From: Luteitalea pratensis
GTDB lineage: Bacteria > Acidobacteriota > Vicinamibacteria > Vicinamibacterales > Vicinamibacteraceae
Assembly: GCF_001618865.1 (NCBI RefSeq)
Contig: NZ_CP015136.1
Span: 5,553,001-5,617,000, forward strand
Reading direction: 5' to 3'
Length of the DNA: 64,000 nucleotides
Made by a program: the position numbers and the translations under genes. A model generated the notes under the pieces. The model had not been told where the DNA came from, did no database searches, and saw only the letters and a program-made list of their open reading frames with translations. Positions 13,216 through 63,649 of this stretch are shown in pieces; the first letter of the stretch is position 1; the number at the start of each line of letters is the position of its first letter.

Positions 13216-13243
13216 GGTAGGGCCGGCTCTCCGAGCCCGGCCC
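13216..13243. repeat. GGTAG-flanked hairpin (class A), single copy
   Basis: GGTAGG followed by the arms GGCCGGCTC and GAGCCCGGCC around a TCC loop, with one bulged C. It lies 50 bp after the TauE gene. Degenerate GCCTTCGGCC and GGCCGTAGGC-type repeats fill the rest of the gap to 13355. Confidence 0.8.
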
Positions 13244-13355
13244 ACGTCGGGCGTCTGAAACTCGGCCTTCGTCCATCGCCATCGGCCTTAGGTCGTGGAC
13301 CGTAGGCCTTGCCGTAGGCTGTAGGCCGCAGGCTGCAGGCGTTAAGCGTTAAGCG

Positions 13356-19245: not shown

Positions 19246-19272
19246 GGTAGGGACCGCTCTCCGAGCGGTCCA
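19246..19272. repeat. GGTAG-flanked hairpin (class A) at the 5' side of the DUF1592 gene
   Basis: GGTAG followed by a perfect 9-bp stem, GGACCGCTC/GAGCGGTCC, with a TCC loop at 19251-19271. A partial GGTAGGAACCGCT copy precedes it at 19231. Confidence 0.85.
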
Positions 19273-19453
19273 CGACCTCACCGTCGAGCGATCCACGGCT
19301 CACCGTCTCTAAGACCGATGCGTCTGATGTCTCGATCCTGTCGCGATAGACGCCTCCGCCTTCGCCGTGGCGTCGGCGGGACGAGTCGGAGAGGCGTTAC
19401 ATCGCGCGCGAACGTGGTCATTCCGTGCCGCCCCCCATCCAAGGTGCGGACAT

Positions 19454-19479
19454 GGACGCCTCGGAGAGGCGTCCCTACC
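19454..19479. repeat. Class A hairpin overlapping the end of the PEBP-like gene
   Basis: Perfect stem GGACGCCTC/GAGGCGTCC with a GGA loop at 19454-19474, then CTACC. On the minus strand its GGTAG supplies the TAG stop of the PEBP-like gene. Confidence 0.88.
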
Positions 19480-20011: not shown

Positions 20012-20340
20012 TGGCGAACCTGCCGGGGAATGGTAGGGCCGGCTCTCCGAGCCCGGCCCTACGATGACGCTCGGGCCGCGTTCTGAGAACGGGCCCTGCC
20101 GTTGCAAAGGCCGAAGGCCGACCGACGAAGGCCGACAGCGCAGTGAAAGGCGGCTCGGCGAGCCGTCGGTACCACTGCCTGCGGTGCCGACCGCCGGACA
20201 AGTTCGGCGGCTACCTATCGAATCCGTCACTCGGAATCTGCTTTGCGGAAGCCGTGTCCCGGTGCCCGGATCTTGTTCCCGTCTCCCGTTTCCCGGCTCC
20301 CGGTTCCCGGCTTCTTCGGTTCCCGGTGCCCGGCTCTTCC
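20012..20340. other. Gene-free repeat-filled gap
   Basis: No gene. A class A hairpin lies at 20032-20062 (GGTAG, then GGCCGGCTC/GAGCCCGGCC, then CTAC). It is followed by a GGGCCCGTTCTCAGAAC-type hairpin near 20077-20099 and GGCCGAAGGCCGAC repeats. A hairpin related to the 11272 palindrome lies near 20188-20207 (CCGCCGGACAAGTTCGGCGG). A TCCCGGTTCCCGGC tandem array runs from 20265 to 20338. Confidence 0.75.
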
Positions 20341-41906: not shown

Positions 41907-42270
41907 GGGGAGGCGTCGCGCTGGCAGGCGCGGCTACCACTCGGAGGGCAACTTCCGCGCCAGCCCTGGCGCGATCCAATGCTTCAGGAGACCTGCCTGC
42001 GGCCGCACCCGCGGCTACCCGGCCGTCGGCAATATTCCCCACCGGCAGCCGAAAAGTCTGCAGATCAAGGGACCAGGCCGACTGCCCTGCCTTATCCCCT
42101 GGTCCCCGGCCACGCTCGGAGAACGGGCCCTACTTGATTGTTGTCCCCTGTCCCTTGAAGCCCTGGTGACTTCTTCGTTGTCCCTTGTCCCTTGGTCGAT
42201 ATCGCGCCCTGACGCGCTACAGTGCTGTTTGAGGCCGGGGCGCGGGACCGGCGCCCCGAGGAGGTCTGCA
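41907..42270. other. Divergent gap between ccoI and thioredoxin
   Basis: It must hold the ccoI (cbb3) and thioredoxin promoters. No FNR-type TTGAT-N4-ATCAA box was found. A class D repeat lies at about 42139-42196 in one orientation only (CCCTTGAAGCCCTGGTGACTT, then GTCCCTTGTCCCTTGG). A CTCGGAGAACGGGCC hairpin half lies near 42116. Confidence 0.6.
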
Positions 42271-48659: not shown

Positions 48660-49135
48660 GCAGGCGCTACGGAAGCCTCGTAGCCAATGCGTTGGTGCCG
48701 GCGGCCCCTGGTCCACCCAGCGAAATGCGGGCGCGTCGGCGGTCCAATGGAGCCTCCGGGAAGAACACAACCCGTGAACCGAAGCTGGTAGGGCGCGCTC
48801 TCAGAGCGCGCCGTCGGGGCCGGGCTCGGCCACCTTCGCGCAACGCGCTTCGGCGCCCAAGGAGAGGCGGCCTACCGTCGGCATATCGCCGCGTCGAGTC
48901 GTACTCAGGCGGCTCGTGTAGGCGCGCGGTTCCCGCCGGCGGGCTTCGCGTCAGCGGTGTCGACCGATTCCGTGGCCACGACGGACGGCTCCATGCCCCA
49001 GATCGCGCGCTGCACGATGATCGGCCCGGTCACGGCGGAAGTGCCCCACGCGGAGAGGGCGCCGGTGCCGGCCGGGGTGACCCGTGCGGTGATGGTTCCG
49101 GGAAACGACATGCGAGTGCTCATCACCGACTTGTG
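48660..49135 (-). pseudogene. Debris of a third AEGAT-repeat protein
   Basis: Minus-strand pieces match the end of the neighbouring propeller gene. At about 48660-48720, AAGTNALATRLP* corresponds to WAAGTNALATRLQ*. Just upstream, VFFPEA corresponds to EFFPEA. At 48960-49040, TGPIIVQRAIWGME corresponds to VPIIVERSMWWPG. The pieces are separated by deletions and by a class A element at 48787-48876. No continuous frame joins them. Confidence 0.65.
48787..48876. repeat. Class A element with long conserved loop (core II)
   Basis: GGTAG plus a perfect stem GGCGCGCTC/GAGCGCGCC (48792-48812, loop TCA). Then GGCCACCTTCGCGC, ACGCGCTTCGGCGCCCAAGG and a closing GGCCTACC. The same core occurs at 62783-62842 and, inverted, at 49416-49470. 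Confidence 0.85.
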
Positions 49136-49505: not shown

Positions 49506-50897
49506 ATGAGCAGCGCACCCCCGCCTTCGCATCCTGGTCAGTCGCACGGCCTGATTCGCCAGTTCGGCCTGCTCCAGGCCACGGCGCTGAACATGTCGAA
49601 CATGATCGGGATCGGGCCGTTCATCACGATCCCGCTGCTGATGACCGCGCTCGGTGGGCCGCAGGCGCTGCTGGGGTGGCTCGTCTCACTGGTCATCGTC
49701 ATCGCCGACGGCTTGATCTGGAGTGAACTCGGCGCGGCGATGCCGGGATCGGGGGGCACCTACCAGTACCTGCGCGAGGGTTTCGGCAGGGAGAAGGTGG
49801 GCCGGCTGATGGCGTTCCTGTTCATCTGGCAGTTCATCCTGTCAGGGCCGCTGGAGATCGCCTCGGGGTACATCGGCTTTGCCCAGTACGCCCGCTATTT
49901 CTGGCCGGGCATGTCGCGGACGTACGTCATCGCCATCGCGTTGGCGGTGGGGGTCGTCAACATCGCGCTCCTCTACCGGCGCATCGAATCGGTCGGGCGG
50001 CTGACGGTCACGCTGTGGATCGGCACGTTGCTGACGACGCTGGCCGTGATCGTCAGCGGCGCCCTGTATTTCCAGGCTGGCGTGGCCTTCGACGTCCCGC
50101 CGGGGGCGTTCACGTTCTCGCTGGGCTTCCTGCTCGGCCTCGGCGCCGCGGCGCGCGTCGGCATCTACGACTACCTCGGCTACTACAACATCTGCTACAT
50201 CGGCGACGAAGTGCGCAACCCGGGTCACGTCATCCCGCGCTCGATCATCATCAGCGTCTTCGCGGTCGCGGTGATCTACATCGCCATCAACCTGTCGATC
50301 ATCGGCGTCGTGTCCTGGCGCGAGTTCGTGCCGGCGTCGGCCAACCCGCAGGCCGATTTCATCGTGTCGGTGTTCATGGAGCGCCTGTACGGCACGTCGG
50401 TAGCCAGCGTGTTCACGCTGCTGGTGCTGTGGACGGCCTTCGGATCGGTCTTCGCGCTGCTGCTCGGCTACTCGCGGATTCCCTACGCGGCCGCCCTCGA
50501 CGGCACGTTCTTCCGTGTCTTCGGCCGGCTCCACCCGACGCAGCACTTCCCGCACGTCGCGCTCCTGACCGTCGGCGCGCTGGCCATGGTGGGCAGCACG
50601 CTGAGCCTGGGGTTGGTCATCGACGCGCTGGTGACGATGCGGATCCTCGTCCAGTTCATCGGCCAGATGGCTGCGCTCGTGCTGCTGCGGCGAACACAGC
50701 CGGACATGCCACGGCCGTTCCGTGTCTGGCTCTATCCGCTGCCGCTGGTGCTGGCGCTGTTCGGCTGGCTGTTCCTGTTTGCCACCACGGACCCCTTCGT
50801 GATCCTGTTCGGCCTGGCCCTGCTGGCGGCAGGAGCCGTCGCGTTCCTCGTGTGGTCGCGCCAGACCCGCCGCTGGCCTTTCGAGATCTCGAGGTAG
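49506..50897 (+). CDS. APC-superfamily amino-acid permease
   Basis: 463 residues from the ATG at 49506. About 12 helices. The unwound helix-1 motif is NMSNMIGIGPFITIPLL, followed by LIWSELGAAMPGSGGTYQYLREGFG. The later IYDYLGYYNICYIGDEVRNPGHVIPRSI region is typical of APC permeases. Substrate not determinable. The C terminus ends FEISR*; the TAG belongs to the GGTAG of the class A element beginning at 50893. Confidence 0.88.
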   Translation: MSSAPPPSHPGQSHGLIRQFGLLQATALNMSNMIGIGPFITIPLLMTALGGPQALLGWLVSLVIVIADGLIWSELGAAMPGSGGTYQYLREGFGREKVGRLMAFLFIWQFILSGPLEIASGYIGFAQYARYFWPGMSRTYVIAIALAVGVVNIALLYRRIESVGRLTVTLWIGTLLTTLAVIVSGALYFQAGVAFDVPPGAFTFSLGFLLGLGAAARVGIYDYLGYYNICYIGDEVRNPGHVIPRSIIISVFAVAVIYIAINLSIIGVVSWREFVPASANPQADFIVSVFMERLYGTSVASVFTLLVLWTAFGSVFALLLGYSRIPYAAALDGTFFRVFGRLHPTQHFPHVALLTVGALAMVGSTLSLGLVIDALVTMRILVQFIGQMAALVLLRRTQPDMPRPFRVWLYPLPLVLALFGWLFLFATTDPFVILFGLALLAAGAVAFLVWSRQTRRWPFEISR

Positions 50898-51018
50898 GGA
50901 CCGCTCTCCGAGCGGCCCATCTCAACGGCATGGCCAACGCCGCGATGGCGCGATGGACGCCTCGGAGAGGCGTCCCTACCAATCCTCGCGATGGACGCCT
51001 CGGAGAGACGTCCCTACC
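50893..51018. repeat. Class A inverted hairpin pair plus a third tandem hairpin
   Basis: The left hairpin, 50893-50918, has GGTAG then GGACCGCTC/GAGCGGCCC. A 36-bp spacer follows. The right hairpin, 50955-50980, has GGACGCCTC/GAGGCGTCC then CTACC. A further copy at 50993-51018, 38 bp on, has one mismatch. The first GGTAG contains the permease stop codon. Confidence 0.9.
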
Positions 51019-53322: not shown

Positions 53323-53395
53323 CGCCGGGTACCGGGTACCGGGTGCCGGGTGCCGGGTACACGACGGTAGGGCCGGCTCTCCGAGCCCGGTCCAC
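53323..53395. repeat. CCGGGTA tandem array and class A hairpin
   Basis: Five or so GGGTACC/GGGTGCC units (53328-53360) run directly into GGTAG and the arms GGCCGGCTC/GAGCCCGG (53366-53395). Confidence 0.8.
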
Positions 53396-53435
53396 GCCAG
53401 GATTTCCGGCTTCACGGGATCCCTGCTAGCCTGCC

Positions 53436-58084: not shown

Positions 58085-59086
58085 TCACGCATCCAGCGCG
58101 ACCGTATTGCCGCTGCGCGCCGCCTGCAGCAACGCGGTGAGGGTGTCGACATTGTCGAGGCTGTCCTCGAGGGTCACGAGCGGTGCGCGACCCGCCCGGG
58201 CCGCGTCGCGGACGTCGTCCACCTCACCCTGGTAGAGGAGCGGCCCGTCGACGGTGACGGTATAGGCCTCGTTCGCCTTCATGACCTCGATCGTCTCGGT
58301 GGGCTCCGGCTTGAACGGATGCCGTACCAGCAGCCGTCCCTCGCTGCCGATGATCTCGACCTCGGTCTTGAAGGGTGACTCGAAACTGCTGTGCACTTGC
58401 GCGACGACGCCGCCGGGGAACTGCAGCTGTCCGAAGAAACTGAGGTCGATCTCCCCCGCGCCCCAGTTCGCGACCGCCTGCACGGAGAGCGGACGGTGGC
58501 CGACGATCGTGCGCGCGAACGACACCGGATAGCAGCCGACGTCCCACAGGCTCCCACCGCCGAACTCGGGAACGAGGCGGGTGTCGAACGCCCGGTCCAG
58601 GACGAACGAGAACGTACCACGCACCCCCTGCAGCCGTCCGATGGTGCCATCGTGCGCCAGTTCACGCGCCCTCGCGACCAGCGCATGATGGCGATACATG
58701 AACGCCTCGGTGATGACCACGTCATGCGTGCGCGCCGCCGACATCAGCACGCGGACACCCGCACCGTCGAGCGAGATCGGCTTCTCGACGAGCACGTGCT
58801 TCCTGGCTTCGGCCGCTTTCACCGCCCACTCGACGTGCATCGAGTGCGGCAGCGGGATGTAGACGGCGTCGATGTCGGGATCGCCGAGCAGTGCCTCGTA
58901 GCTGCCGTACGCTCGCGCGATCCCCTGCGTCTCCGCGTAGGTGCGGGCACGTTCGACGCTGCGCGAGGCGATGGCCAGCAATTGGTGTCCATTGGACGCC
59001 AGCGGCCCGACGAGGGCGCGGTTGATACGGGCAACGCCGAGGATGCCCCAGCGGAAGGGTGCAGGCGATTCGGTCACAGGCAGCAT
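58085..59086 (-). CDS. Gfo/Idh/MocA-family NAD(P)-dependent oxidoreductase
   Basis: 333 residues from the ATG at 59086 (MLPVTESPAPFRWGILGVA); the frame open upstream runs through repeats. Rossmann motif: WGILGVARINRALV. The family motif EKPIS occurs in HVLVEKPISLDG, with DIDAVYIPLPHSMH before it. The C-terminal alpha/beta domain includes FGGGSLWDVGCYPVSFAR. Likely acts on a sugar or polyol. It is an isolated gene; the substrate cannot be assigned. Confidence 0.9.
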   Translation of the reverse strand: MLPVTESPAPFRWGILGVARINRALVGPLASNGHQLLAIASRSVERARTYAETQGIARAYGSYEALLGDPDIDAVYIPLPHSMHVEWAVKAAEARKHVLVEKPISLDGAGVRVLMSAARTHDVVITEAFMYRHHALVARARELAHDGTIGRLQGVRGTFSFVLDRAFDTRLVPEFGGGSLWDVGCYPVSFARTIVGHRPLSVQAVANWGAGEIDLSFFGQLQFPGGVVAQVHSSFESPFKTEVEIIGSEGRLLVRHPFKPEPTETIEVMKANEAYTVTVDGPLLYQGEVDDVRDAARAGRAPLVTLEDSLDNVDTLTALLQAARSGNTVALDA

Positions 59087-59091
59087 CGTAC

Positions 59092-59155
59092 TCAAGAATG
59101 CTGGAATGCCGAGAATGCTGGAATGCCGAGAATGCTGGAATGTCGAAATGCCGGG
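59092..59155. repeat. AATGCTGGAATGCCGAG tandem array
   Basis: Three units of about 19 bp (AATGCTGGAATGCCGAG-like) followed by a decayed one. It lies just upstream of the oxidoreductase start. Confidence 0.85.
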
Positions 59156-59165
59156 TGCTCGAGGC

Positions 59166-59186
59166 GGCGCGCTCGGCGAGCGCGCC
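59166..59186. repeat. Class A-like perfect hairpin
   Basis: Stem GGCGCGCTC/GAGCGCGCC with a GGC loop. It lies 21 bp left of the inverted pair at 59207-59290. Confidence 0.85.
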
Positions 59187-59206
59187 CAACCATCCCGATT
59201 GACGAC

Positions 59207-59290
59207 GGTAGGGACGGCTCTCTGAGCCGTCCATCTCCGAAGCCATGATGGTCGGCTTCCAGGCGAGGGCCCGCTCGGAGAGCGGGCCCT
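59207..59290. repeat. Class A inverted hairpin pair (core I)
   Basis: The left hairpin has GGTAG and the perfect stem GGACGGCTC/GAGCCGTCC (59212-59232). The right has the perfect stem GGCCCGCTC/GAGCGGGCC (59268-59288). The 35-bp spacer, read on the minus strand, contains CTGGAAGCCGA and TCATGGCTTCGGAG. The same words occur in the spacer at 63507-63541. Confidence 0.92.
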
Positions 59291-59324
59291 CCCTTCGTGC
59301 GCAACGAGGCATAATCCCGGAAGC

Positions 59325-60089
59325 ATGTCCTCTCCTTCGGGATCTCCTGCCGTTCGGCCGACGAGGGTGCAGTTGCTGGTGACGTGCCTGGTCGACCACT
59401 TCTCGCCCGACACGGCCGAGGCGGTGGTTCGCGTGCTCGAGCGGGAGGGCGTCGAAGTCGTCGTGCCCGAGGACCAGACCTGCTGCGGGCAGCCAGCCTG
59501 CAATGCGGGAGCAAGGGCGGATGCGGTCGCGATGGCCAAGCACACCATCGCCGTCCTCGAGCGTGACCCCAGCCCGGTGGTGATTCCGTCGGGGTCGTGC
59601 ACGGACATGCTCGTGCACCAGGCACCGGCGCTGCTTGCCGGTGAGCCCGAGTGGGCCGAGCGCGCCCGCACCGTCGCCGCCAGGACCTACGAGTTCACCC
59701 AGTTCGTTGTCGACGTCCTCGGCGTGACCGATCTGCCATGCACGGCATCGGGCACGCTGGCCTACCACGCGTGCTGCCACGGGCTGCGCGGCGTCGGCAT
59801 CGACGCGCAGCCGCGACGGCTGCTCGAGCACGTCTCCGGCGCCAGGGTGGTACCCCTTCCCGAGCACGACACGTGCTGCGGTTTCGGCGGGCTGTTCGCG
59901 ATCAAGATGCCCGACATCTCTGGCGCGATGCTCGAGCGCAAATGCCGGCAGATTGCCGCCGCCGGCGCCGACACGATCGTCGTCACCGACGTGAGCTGTG
60001 CGATGCACATGCAGGGCGGTCTGGATCGGCAGGCGCAGGCGGTGCGCGTGCGGCACATCGCCGACATCCTCGCGGGCGGGACGGCATGA
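59325..60089 (+). CDS. lutA: LutA-type CCG-domain Fe-S subunit of lactate oxidation
   Basis: 254 residues. Two CCG domains: CCGQPACNAG in the first and CCGFGGLFAIKMPDIS in the second, with HACCHGLRG between; these bind an iron-sulfur cluster or act in heterodisulfide-type electron transfer. LutABC oxidise L-lactate to pyruvate. The stop overlaps the lutB start by 4 bp (ATGA). Confidence 0.9.
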   Translation: MSSPSGSPAVRPTRVQLLVTCLVDHFSPDTAEAVVRVLEREGVEVVVPEDQTCCGQPACNAGARADAVAMAKHTIAVLERDPSPVVIPSGSCTDMLVHQAPALLAGEPEWAERARTVAARTYEFTQFVVDVLGVTDLPCTASGTLAYHACCHGLRGVGIDAQPRRLLEHVSGARVVPLPEHDTCCGFGGLFAIKMPDISGAMLERKCRQIAAAGADTIVVTDVSCAMHMQGGLDRQAQAVRVRHIADILAGGTA

Positions 60090-61531
60090 GCCACGCGGCG
60101 CCATTGCCGTTCTACGCCCGGGCTCAGGAAGCGATCGCGGACCGGCAGTTGCAGACGGCCCTCGATCGCGCGACGACACGCATGGTGGTCGCCCGCAAGC
60201 AGGCCATCGGCCTCATCGCCGACGGCGAGGCTGCCCGCGACCACGCGCGACAGATCCGGGCCCACACGATCGCGAACCTCGATCGCTACCTCGATCAGTT
60301 CGTCGAACGCGCCACGGCGGCCGGTGTGCACGTCCATTTCGCCAGTGATGCCGAGACAGCCACGACCCTCGTGGTCGACATCGCACGCCGCAACGGCGTC
60401 AGGCGCGTCGTCAAGGGCAAGTCGATGGTGTCCGAGGAAATCGAGCTGAACCACGCGCTCGAGGCTGCCGACATGCGGGTGGTGGAAACCGATCTCGGCG
60501 AGTACGTCATTCAACTCGACAAGGACGTACCGTCGCACATCATCGCGCCCATCATCCACAAGACGAAAGAACAGGTCGCCGAGACGTTCCGTCGCGAACT
60601 GGATGCCAGTGACGCCGACGTGGCCGACATCCCGCAGATGACGGCCTTCGCACGACGCATGTTGCGAGCCGAGTTCCTAGCAGCCGACATGGGGATCAGC
60701 GGCGTGAACTTCGCCGTCGCCGAGAGCGGCAGCCTGTGCCTCGTCGAGAACGAAGGCAACGGGCGACTGTCGACGACGGTACCGCGGCTGCACGTGGCCC
60801 TGATGGGCATCGAACGGATCGTACCGACCGCCGCCGACCTGGCGGTGTCGCTCCGCGTCCTCGCCCGCAGTGGCACCGGCCAGGCCCTCACGGTCTACAC
60901 CAACATCATCACCGGCCCGCGGCGCGCCGACGATCCGGACGGCCCGTCCGAGGTGCACGTCGTACTCGTGGACAACGGCCGCTCGAACATGCTCCGAACC
61001 GAGCTCGAGGAAATCCTCTACTGCATCCGCTGCGGAGCCTGCCTGAACGCCTGCCCGGTGTACCAGGAGATCGGCGGCCATGCGTACGGGAGCGTCTATC
61101 CGGGGCCTGTCGGCGCCGTGTACACGCCGGGCGCGTTCGGGCTCGGGCCGTGGGCTGATCTGCCGCAAGCGAGCAGCCTGTGCGGGGCCTGCAAGGAAGC
61201 GTGCCCGGTGCGAATCGACATCCCGCGGATGCTGCTCGCCCTGCGCGCCCGCGCCGAGGAAGGCGGGCACACGCCGCGATGGGTCGGCCAGGGGTTACGC
61301 GTGTTCCGCTTTGTCGCGACCAGGCCACGGCTGTACCGGTTCGCGTCGGCGGCGGCGCGGCGCGTGTCGCGATGGTTCGGTCCCACTGGCTTCGACCGCC
61401 TGCCGGGGCCGCTCGCCGGCTGGACGCGGCATCGACACTTCCCTGCGATGGCAGCCGAGACCTTCACCGCGCGAAGACGGCGCCTGGGCCGGTCCCGCCT
61501 TCGCCTCCGGCTTCGGCGGGGCAAGCCATGA
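60086..61531 (+). CDS. lutB: LutB-type Fe-S protein of lactate oxidation
   Basis: 481 residues from the ATG at 60086. The LUD domain has KGKSMVSEEIELNHALE and GISGVNFAVAESGSLCLVENEGNGR. Two 4Fe-4S motifs follow: CIRCGACLNACPVYQEIGGH (about 312) and CGACKEACPVRIDIP (about 366). The final 20 residues are Arg/Leu-rich (RRRRLGRSRLRLRLRRG). They are encoded by a CCGCCTTCGCCTCCGGCTTCGGCGG palindrome related to the 49170 repeat, so the tail probably comes from repeat insertion. It overlaps lutA and lutC by 4 bp each. Confidence 0.92.
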   Translation: MSHAAPLPFYARAQEAIADRQLQTALDRATTRMVVARKQAIGLIADGEAARDHARQIRAHTIANLDRYLDQFVERATAAGVHVHFASDAETATTLVVDIARRNGVRRVVKGKSMVSEEIELNHALEAADMRVVETDLGEYVIQLDKDVPSHIIAPIIHKTKEQVAETFRRELDASDADVADIPQMTAFARRMLRAEFLAADMGISGVNFAVAESGSLCLVENEGNGRLSTTVPRLHVALMGIERIVPTAADLAVSLRVLARSGTGQALTVYTNIITGPRRADDPDGPSEVHVVLVDNGRSNMLRTELEEILYCIRCGACLNACPVYQEIGGHAYGSVYPGPVGAVYTPGAFGLGPWADLPQASSLCGACKEACPVRIDIPRMLLALRARAEEGGHTPRWVGQGLRVFRFVATRPRLYRFASAAARRVSRWFGPTGFDRLPGPLAGWTRHRHFPAMAAETFTARRRRLGRSRLRLRLRRGKP

Positions 61532-62223: not shown

Positions 62224-62753
62224 CGGTGAGTGGTGCGCCCGAAGCAACCAACTCGCGAGAACGCGCCGTGCGCGCCGCCGGACTGGTCGTCTCCAGCGCG
62301 GGATGCGCGGCGTTGCTCTGGCTGTTCGTCCACCAGCCGACCAACCTGCAGGAACTCGCCGGCGGCGTCGCCGCCTCGGTGGGCGCGTACCAGATCAACC
62401 AGGCGGACTTCGATCAGGGCAGGCAGTTCTTCGCGGGAGACAAGTTCGTCGAGGCACGCGCCGCGTTCGCGCGCGCCGACCCGGCGTCCCGTCACGCCAT
62501 CACCCAGTTCTACATCGCCTACAGCTACTACAGGCAGGGCTGGGGCCGCGTCTACAGTGACGACACGCTGTTTGCCCGGGGGCTCGAGGCGGTGAACCGC
62601 GCGATGACGCTGGCGCCCGGCGGTCTCCTTCGCGTCGACGATGCTGCGCTCGACATGAAGTCCGCCGACGAACTCAAGGCCGAACTCGAGCGTGGACTCA
62701 CGCGCGACGCCTCCGATTTCAATCCGTTGCGCGTGCTGAGGCAGCGGCGATGA
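62220..62753 (+). CDS. Membrane-anchored TPR-like protein, unknown
   Basis: 177 residues. One N-terminal helix (AAGLVVSSAGCAALLWLFV) is followed by helical hairpins reminiscent of TPR units (FDQGRQFFAGDKFVEARAAFARADP, TQFYIAYSYYRQGWG, FARGLEAVNRAMTLAP). It is probably a periplasmic scaffold. It overlaps lutC and the next membrane protein by 4 bp each, so it is part of the same transcript. Confidence 0.7.
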   Translation: MTVSGAPEATNSRERAVRAAGLVVSSAGCAALLWLFVHQPTNLQELAGGVAASVGAYQINQADFDQGRQFFAGDKFVEARAAFARADPASRHAITQFYIAYSYYRQGWGRVYSDDTLFARGLEAVNRAMTLAPGGLLRVDDAALDMKSADELKAELERGLTRDASDFNPLRVLRQRR

Positions 62754-63649
62754 GCGGCCACGAGATCGCACGTGCTGACGAAGGCCGGGCTCGGCCACCT
62801 TCGCGCGACGCGCTTCGGCGCCCAAGGGGAGCCGGCCCTACCATCGGCAACGATGCGCACTTGCGCGCCGGGCGCGAGGCCTTCGTGTTGCCGCTGTTGC
62901 TGATCGGCGTTGCAGCGGGAGGTGGCTTCCGCAGCAGCATCACCGACGGCGCGTGGCGATTCCTGCCGCCGACGCCGATGGCGCTCGTGCTCGGGTTGCT
63001 GCTGGTCGGCATGCTCGTGCGCACCGGCGTACTCGTCCCATGGGCGCTGCTCGGGCCGCAGCGATCGGGGCTGGCCAACGCCAATGGCGCGATGCTGCTG
63101 GGGACGCTGCTGCTGGCCTCGGCGCAGGTGTTCACGGCTCTGTCACCGGAATCGGGACTGCTGCAGGTCCTCGCATCGGTCTTCTTCCTGCTTCTGCTGC
63201 TCAACACCCTGGCCGCGCAGCCGACGCGCGCCCGCGCGATGCAGAGTCTCGGCGTGGTCCTGTTGTCGGCCTTCGTGCTCAAGTACGTGGTGCTCGACTC
63301 GCTGTACGCTCCGGAAGGCAGCCTGGCGCGCAAGGTCGTGACGACGCTGATCGAAGGTGTGTCGCTCGGTGCGCTCGGCTACACGGCACACGGCGCGGCA
63401 ACGGCGTACGTGGCGTTCGTGGTCGTGCTCGCCTACCTGTTCGCGCTCGTGCTGTTGCCTGGAGACGAGATGACCACAACGGTAGGGCCCGCTCTCCGAG
63501 CGGGCCGTCAACTGGAAGCCGATGGTCATGGCCTCGGAGTTGGCCGGCTCGGAGAGCCGGCCCTACCAGGAGAGCCGGCCCTACCAACCGTCACCGCGAC
63601 GCCCGCCAGCGACGCACGACTGGCACCGCCACGTCCGGACGATCGCTGA
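62750..63649 (+). CDS. Multi-pass membrane protein with repeat-encoded ends, unknown
   Basis: 299 residues as an open frame. Residues 45-240 hold about six membrane helices (VLPLLLIGVAAGGGF, ALVLGLLLVGMLV, LLQVLASVFFLLLLL, YVAFVVVLAYLFALVLL). Residues about 12-34 (EGRARPPSRDALRRPRGAG) are translated from the class A core II element at 62783-62842. The last ~55 residues (TVGPALRAG, LGEPALPGEPALP) come from the inverted pair at 63481-63585 and beyond. The native protein was probably shorter at one or both ends. Function unknown. Confidence 0.65.
   Translation: MSGHEIARADEGRARPPSRDALRRPRGAGPTIGNDAHLRAGREAFVLPLLLIGVAAGGGFRSSITDGAWRFLPPTPMALVLGLLLVGMLVRTGVLVPWALLGPQRSGLANANGAMLLGTLLLASAQVFTALSPESGLLQVLASVFFLLLLLNTLAAQPTRARAMQSLGVVLLSAFVLKYVVLDSLYAPEGSLARKVVTTLIEGVSLGALGYTAHGAATAYVAFVVVLAYLFALVLLPGDEMTTTVGPALRAGRQLEADGHGLGVGRLGEPALPGEPALPTVTATPASDARLAPPRPDDR
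62783..62842. repeat. Class A element with core II inside a coding region
   Basis: GGCCGGGCTC, then GGCCACCTTCGCGC, ACGCGCTTCGGCGCCCAAGG and a closing GAGCCGGCCCTACC. It is nearly identical to 48822-48876 and lies in frame with the membrane-protein gene. Confidence 0.88.
63481..63585. repeat. Class A inverted hairpin pair (core I) plus partial third copy
   Basis: The left perfect stem is GGCCCGCTC/GAGCGGGCC (63486-63506) after GGTAG. The right perfect stem is GGCCGGCTC/GAGCCGGCC (63542-63562) before CTACC. A half-copy with GAGCCGGCCCTACC ends at 63585. The spacer contains CTGGAAGCCGA and TCATGGCCTCGGAG, shared with 59207-59290. Confidence 0.92.

Follow-up and report, generated by a model that had tools for sequence, protein, structure and literature searches.

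We find that the element at position 59207 of the window is a pair of inverted REP hairpins whose two stems differ, and that such unlike pairs recur throughout the genome of Luteitalea pratensis. By the window we mean the whole stretch of 64,000 nucleotides analysed here, positions 5553001-5617000 of a one-contig genome of 7,480,314 bp. In this genome and its relatives we observe REP pairs, a RAYT nearby, RAYT-flanking REPs that match the main pairs, unlike ends within pairs, and the absence of whole pairs at aligned sites. These observations are best accounted for together, and we hold this with good confidence, by a REP pair belonging to a RAYT (TnpA-REP) system, that is, a non-autonomous mobile repeat with ends that are kept unlike and a mechanism that we infer below.

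Paired hairpins in the window

Each hairpin of the 59207 element consists of a GTAG tetranucleotide followed by a 9-bp stem with a 3-nt loop (GGNNNNCTC-TCN-GAGNNNNCC). The two hairpins are mutually inverted, their GTAG feet point outward and the gap between them is 34 nt. As palindromes of 20-40 nt with a GTAG tag at one end, they qualify as REPs of the GTAG super-family. An equal layout is present at 63481-63567, at 50893-50980 and, in a wider form, at 19247-19478 (Table 1). The two-hairpin element that had been placed at 59207-59290 in the original prediction is therefore real, although it ends at 59293, three bases further. The pairs at 59207, 63481 and 50893 have the outer GGTAG/CTACC ends described there except at the right foot of the 59207 pair, which reads CTCCC for CTACC. 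The prediction was silent on the wide pair at 19247-19478, on the unlike stems within pairs and on the REP/RAYT identity.

Table 1 Coordinates of the REP hairpins, pairs and spacers in the window.
Feature	Positions	Strand	Remarks
REP pair 1	59207..59293	.	feet outward; left stem ACGGC, right stem CCCGC
Left hairpin, pair 1	59208..59232	+	GTAG + 9-bp stem, loop TCT, type ACGGC
Spacer, pair 1	59233..59266	.	homologous to reverse-complemented pair 2 spacer (27/34)
Right hairpin, pair 1	59267..59293	-	type CCCGC; foot GGAG, not GTAG
REP pair 2	63481..63567	.	left CCCGC, right CCGGC; inside open frame
Spacer, pair 2	63507..63541	.
REP pair 3	50893..50980	.	left ACCGC (one mismatch), right ACGCC
Extra tandem copy, pair 3 right hairpin	50985..51017	-	ACGTC, one mismatch
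Wide REP pair	19247..19478	.	182-nt spacer; left ACCGC, right ACGCC
Single perfect hairpin	48788..48820	+	stem CGCGC, loop TCA; partner not found
Class B (bulged) REP	13217..13249	+	no partner seen
Class B REP	20033..20065	+	CCCGT partner 17 nt on, unlike too
Class B-like REP	42101..42133	-	CCCGT stem
Class B REP	53367..53399	+

A kinship between the 59207 and 63481 spacers, once one of them is reverse-complemented, had also been proposed and is borne out by our comparison. Ungapped, the spacers match at 27 of 34 positions, a score reached by none of 20000 shuffles (best 20), and BLAST finds a match to window 58600-60100 at window 63475-63567 (genome 5616475-5616567), with 85% identity and E 2.8e-22. 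Since the spacers agree so far beyond the shuffles, the two pairs, 4.3 kb apart and in opposite orientation, are, judged by their sequence, copies of each other with the spacer included. Their CCCG stems are alike, and their other stems are one compensated base pair apart (ACGG versus CCGG). The spacer of the 50893 pair (36 nt) reads as unrelated to both, in line with the different spacer predicted for it: three ungapped comparisons give 15/25, 13/33 and 16/34 matches.

The 59207 pair is flanked by two divergently transcribed genes, encoding a GFO/IDH/MocA oxidoreductase (-) and a CCG-domain protein (+), with conserved gene blocks on both sides. The 63481 pair sits in the 3' part of an open frame (62750-63649) that has no Pfam match, and the left foot TAG of the 50893 pair is the stop codon of an upstream permease-like frame. 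Beside the 59207 pair, window positions 59165-59190 hold a further hairpin (GGGCGCGCTCGCCGAGCGCGCC on the minus strand), and BLAST matches to this stretch recur in genomes G005 and G006. The intergenic positions 59093-59160 hold an imperfect tandem repeat of GAATGCTGGAATGCCGA. An Rfam scan of the 48-64 kb part of the window returned three weak matches, none reaching its curated threshold.

Pairing and spacers across the genome

We searched the genome for strict pairs with the stems left free. The search finds 34 places with 30-60 nt between the fixed parts and 26 places with 60-90 nt, while the reversed-pattern control finds 0 in either case. One place is common to both searches, leaving 59 distinct strict matches; among these are tandem copies from two loci, and two of them each share one hairpin with another match. 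A systematic sample of 2,044,000 bases, made up of the window and 99 stretches of 20 kb each, contains 134 hairpins whose foot has no more than one mismatch, a multiplicity that is expected of REPs. Among the 91 hairpins of the sample with perfect stems (class A), 60 belong to a feet-outward pair within 400 bp, 9 to same-orientation tandems, and 22 are single. Collapsing two tandem arrays leaves the sample with 67 perfect hairpins, of which 45 are in feet-outward pairs and 0 in feet-inward ones. The pair is the rule for class A hairpins, and its build of two inverse REPs and a linker, sometimes in tandem (array at 4605354), is that of a BIME or HH dimer. Most copies of the class B REPs in the sample, which have one bulged C, are unpaired.

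Two tandem arrays, at 5517770-5518835 (L124) and 3999441-4000311, are made of a lone ACGG-type hairpin in 15 units each and end in one ACGC hairpin, an amplification of one pair half only.

The suggestion that singles are decayed or partial copies holds for a part of them. A degenerate partner, defined as at least 10 of 14 fixed positions, lies downstream of 8 of the 22 singles versus 3 of 22 on the upstream side, which served as control. Decay therefore accounts for some singles only.

Class A spacers range from 5 to 304 nt and are unrelated genome-wide, an outcome that the original prediction had named as evidence against its view of the pair as the unit of spread; the 59207 and 63481 spacers are an exception. 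In 1431 comparisons among 58 class A pairs, with very short spacers dropped and likeness built from REP fragments set aside by inspection, sharing occurs only in tandem or neighbouring copies. The top scores between far loci (59, 55 and 45) come, on inspection, from REP-derived inner repeats and are therefore not counted as shared spacers. Because spacers are unrelated genome-wide, movement of pair and spacer as one unit is evident only locally; what stands of that view is that the pair is the normal state. Beyond this genome, a near-equal 30-nt spacer lies between CCGGC and CCCGC at four loci (L257, L265, L288, L301) of the Verrucomicrobia record set JACRKC, and a spacing of 37 nt comes up repeatedly, together with conserved inner ends, in Opitutae records among the loci listed.

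A RAYT gene among the copies

A Y1 transposase (PF01797) of 154 aa is encoded on the minus strand at 4000308-4000772 (L001:1354-1818). Class A pairs start at 4000224 on one flank of the gene and at 4000904 and 4001026 on the other, and the gene adjoins a tandem array of ACGG hairpins. The protein scores 94.7 bits against NF047646 (REP-associated tyrosine transposase; curated cut-off 80) and matches the E. coli TnpA-REP structure 4er8 (E 2.2e-8), and the RAYT alignment contains HVH and Y-LR-NPV motifs. All four proteins tested pass the NF047646 cut-off, which identifies them as RAYTs (TnpA-REP); the other three are 51, 54 and 60% identical to the 154-aa protein. A second RAYT of this genome (L004) has a class B hairpin close downstream (region 1497523-1497959). 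The RAYT of the sister genome G004 is flanked by CCCGT and CCGGC hairpins, the stems of that genome's commonest pair, and that of G001, a genome with no strict pair, by GTAG hairpins with another stem. A RAYT gene flanked by its REPs constitutes a REPtron. On these sequence grounds the REP pairs are probably spread by a RAYT transposase; against this counts that spacers travel with the pairs only locally.

A broken Y1 match is present at 2122613-2122866, and another kind of Y1 transposase occurs in G004 and G001 (L240, L241), amid GTAG hairpins of different sequence.

Unlike stems within pairs

No pair with identical stems is found among the 59 strict matches, as read from the match lists, or among 50 non-redundant pairs of a relaxed set (62 found minus 4 class B pairs and 8 tandem copies). 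Shuffles of these 50 pairs, which treat pairs as independent when one heterodimer makes up 31 of them, give a mean of 14.6 identical pairs and a minimum of 3, and 0 of 100000 are as low as the observed 0. Like REPs that fold into one long hairpin, by which a REPIN is strictly defined, are accordingly seen in 0 of 50 pairs. In the sister genome G004, identical stems are found in 0 of 25 pairs (shuffle mean 5.0; 0 is reached in 230 of 100000 shuffles). The set consists of 23 of the genome's 25 strict pairs and two others, and the remaining two strict pairs are likewise unlike.

The 50 pairs show 13 combinations of eight stem types (ACGG, ACCG, ACGC, CCGG, CCCG and a few more), with no type combined with itself. 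Every stem stays a perfect hairpin because the types differ by compensatory flips. The commonest combination is ACCGC x ACGCC here (31/50) and CCCGT x CCGGC in G004 (11/25), and the pairs outside it, 19 in this genome and 14 in G004, are all unlike. Class B pairs are unlike as well, in 7 of 7 among those listed (CCC- x CCG-type stems).

These counts bear on whether the unlike ends reflect descent only, with one master pair of unlike ends amplified in each genome and minor combinations derived by recombination. The dominance of one combination per genome is in keeping with such a history, as is the recurrence of CGGG/ACGG ends with a 37-nt spacer in Opitutae records among the loci listed. Recombination should also yield identical pairs, however, and none is present in the minor combinations of either genome; moreover, the second REP class is likewise unlike. 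We regard descent alone as a serious possibility, although we lean against it and favour ends that are kept unlike.

We also scanned a collection of 84,980 genomes, which gave at least 119 stretches, mostly from Verrucomicrobiota, of which 80 loci were read. Outside the genus the rule is strong but not absolute, since identical stems occur in 9 of the 84 pairs at the 80 loci listed (four of these pairs come from the G004 record set). Three of the nine identical pairs have a REP hairpin on neither side and two on one side only. Given these nine pairs and the identical doublets described for Pseudomonas fluorescens SBW25 (PMC3116915), identical ends are not impossible in general.

Pairs of the GTAGGG/TCTCCGAG kind (L245-L324) occur, among the loci listed, in many Verrucomicrobiota records, one Lentisphaerae and one Kiritimatiellae, and in single records labelled Akkermansia and Polynucleobacter, labels that are perhaps binning errors. 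Transfer between phyla is a possible reading of this distribution.

Predicted folding of like and unlike ends

The median computed MFE of 65 real pairs is -27.8 kcal/mol, versus -42.7 and -42.4 kcal/mol for in-silico versions with identical ends, so that the fold of identical ends is deeper by about 15 kcal/mol. Both local hairpins exceed a probability of 0.5 in 18 of the 65 real pairs and in 0 of 65 identical-end versions. At equilibrium, at least one local hairpin stays at or below this value in the remaining 47 of the 65 real pairs; therefore, unlike ends do not simply free the feet. The long fold is weakened in real pairs and often still favoured. Because most real pairs still prefer other folds, the modelled folding supports a weaker snapback over fully free feet.

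Occupied and empty sites in relatives

Strict pairs are lacking in three of the four other genomes of the genus that we searched, and the fourth, the sister genome G004, has 25. The search for empty sites that the original prediction proposed was fruitful, as whole pairs are absent at several aligned sites. The 59207 pair is absent at the aligned site in G001, G002, G003 and G004. The 63481 site carries a CCCGT x CCGGC pair in G004 and no pair in G001 and G002 (G003 is not covered). Because its pair is absent in four relatives while the 63481 site is occupied in G004, 59207 is probably the younger copy of the two. The 6572281 pair is absent in G004, where the flanks close up, the 6569861 and 6571121 pairs are absent in G001, and the 3573141 pair is absent in both G001 and G004. 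Three G004 pairs (L186, L190, L210) are missing in the L. pratensis genome. In the alignments inspected, no single hairpin or spacer is kept at empty sites; at ~80% identity these intergenic alignments are loose and place the boundaries only approximately.

At the 6572281 site, G004 and G001 both have a GGTAG that includes the stop codon TAG, which makes GTAG a candidate pre-existing target at this one clear empty site; the same is not seen at 6571121 or at the L. pratensis site that matches L186. In L. pratensis, 78 of 98 ends have A or T two bases ahead of GTAG, and in G004, 49 of 50 ends have G at this position. Target-site duplications, which had been proposed as a further check, were not found in 74 pairs: the mean longest repeat is 1.46 versus 1.37 in shuffles, 53 of 200 of which score as high, so that the pairs differ from classical MITEs. 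To our knowledge, no such duplication is expected for the enzyme class of RAYT.

The empty sites are also relevant to a reading in which the mobile unit is the single REP hairpin and a pair forms when a hairpin of another type lands nearby in inverted orientation. The unrelated spacers of 5-304 nt, the many stem combinations and the unpaired state of most class B copies in the sample agree with this reading. A random second insertion, however, would not be expected to produce feet-outward pairs only or to leave identical pairs absent. Furthermore, no inspected empty site keeps a spacer without hairpins, and the 59207 and 63481 pairs have a spacer in common. We therefore consider single-hairpin movement unlikely and retain the pair of a RAYT system as our preferred reading.

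Four sites are occupied in both L. pratensis and G004: 50893, 63481, 3841269 and 3539209, the last two reached through loci chosen for holding pairs. One stem differs at 63481, by one base pair, and both stems differ at the other three. At 50893, ACCG x ACGC in L. pratensis corresponds to CCCGT x CCGGC in G004, and the foot is a stop codon at the same codon position in both species. The likeness of the spacers at the four sites is not above that of controls, which, together with the two differing stems at three of them, argues against simple inheritance or copying. Since these spacers do not exceed the controls in likeness, re-insertion at a favoured site is indistinguishable from full replacement. 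An inherited pair with replaced stems, a candidate that we considered, is not shown by spacers that are no better than controls. Eight G004 pairs have flanks that map into the L. pratensis sample or window, where two correspond to a class A pair, two to a class B hairpin and four to no listed hairpin.

Among 144 pair ends from both genomes, 21 have a foot whose TAG terminates a likely coding frame (open for at least 100 codons, GC3 above 0.8), versus 5 and 7 in the other two frames, which are an imperfect control. REP feet may thus supply stop codons or be targeted to them.

These 21 ends, the stems kept perfect by compensatory types and hairpins that serve both strands would suit immobile signals in RNA or DNA that the host maintains, such as bidirectional terminators, mRNA 3' ends or gyrase/IHF sites. 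However, the 59207 pair lies between divergently transcribed genes, and read directly, the three window pairs at 59207, 63481 and 50893 have no T-run after their hairpins, as an intrinsic terminator would. The lack of strict pairs in three of four relatives and the RAYT gene among the copies also speak against such signals, which we consider a very improbable explanation compared with mobile pairs of a RAYT system.

Discussion

GTAG REPs, HH heterodimers and RAYT linkage are known already. The REP/BIME elements of E. coli (y, z1, z2) and their TnpA-REP, as described in PMC8266576 and PMC6006769, resemble the present family in the GTAG foot, the hairpin, the inverted pairs of unlike REPs and the REPs around the RAYT gene. 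E. coli REPs are bulged, whereas class A hairpins here combine a perfect stem with a 3-nt loop; a further difference lies in the 13 combinations of 8 stem types in 50 pairs of the present family, with no type paired with itself. The REPINs of SBW25 share two inverted REPs, a short spacer and the link to RAYT, and the account given in PMC3116915 proposes that the doublet is the unit that moves and that singlets are its remains. SBW25 doublets typically hold identical REPs and are rarely mixed according to that account, in contrast to the 0 of 50 identical pairs found here.

A further related description is that of the GTAG families and their HH heterodimers by Di Nocera et al. (2013). The dimers likewise have outward feet, most of their spacers measure 20-100 bp, and sub-families show complementary stem changes (PMC3733652). 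In the text available to us, some of these families are heterodimeric only, one of them, in P. aeruginosa, by different stems, and O. terrae (Verrucomicrobia) is rich in GTAG repeats; we compared the O. terrae families by description only. The phyla given for GTAG repeats in that text omit Acidobacteria, which appear for TIRYT transposases (PMC3733652). IS200/IS605 elements likewise have an enzyme of the HUH/Y1 kind, and a guide tetranucleotide accompanies their subterminal hairpins (PMC8266576). Here, by contrast, the hairpins are mutually inverted, the pair does not enclose a transposase, and the RAYTs fall below the IS200 cut-off (27 versus 55 bits for the 154-aa RAYT).

As reported in PMC8266576, TnpA-REP recognises the single-stranded REP and not its inverted copy, and cuts at CT nearby; this mode of recognition and cutting would hold here too. 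RAYT, as an HUH/Y1 single-strand endonuclease, would recognise the GTAG-hairpin on single-stranded DNA, for example at replication forks, cut beside it and re-join it elsewhere. As a result, pairs would build up, multiply in local tandem arrays and decay into single hairpins. The ends of a pair would be kept different in stem sequence, and the likeliest reason is that identical ends may form a long stable snapback, which would hide both feet from the enzyme and be prone to deletion.

A stronger version of this model is a self-exclusion rule, under which REP pairs in this family are copied or retained only when their two stems differ. Stem types would then be exchangeable labels, replaced together with the resident RAYT even where both species carry a pair, as at window 50893. 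We put this forward as a speculative and rather doubtful extension.

Di Nocera et al. saw no obvious reason why most families prefer heterodimers to homodimers, and suggested protection from the clearance of large hairpins (PMC3733652). Our data fit this suggestion without testing it. Searches of the open-access literature gave no paper on REPs in Luteitalea and, in the titles and abstract openings listed for RAYT in Acidobacteria and for REP heterodimers, no such acidobacterial family. What is added here is a family that occurs in the genus of Luteitalea and also among Verrucomicrobiota records, and for which neither of two species of the genus yielded an identical pair. It represents a strict, many-typed heterodimer case, in which stems change by compensatory flips and identical pairs are absent from two species with different favourite combinations, and it also offers a RAYT close by as well as empty and shared sites between species. 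The heterodimer question therefore becomes testable with purified RAYT and designed pairs.
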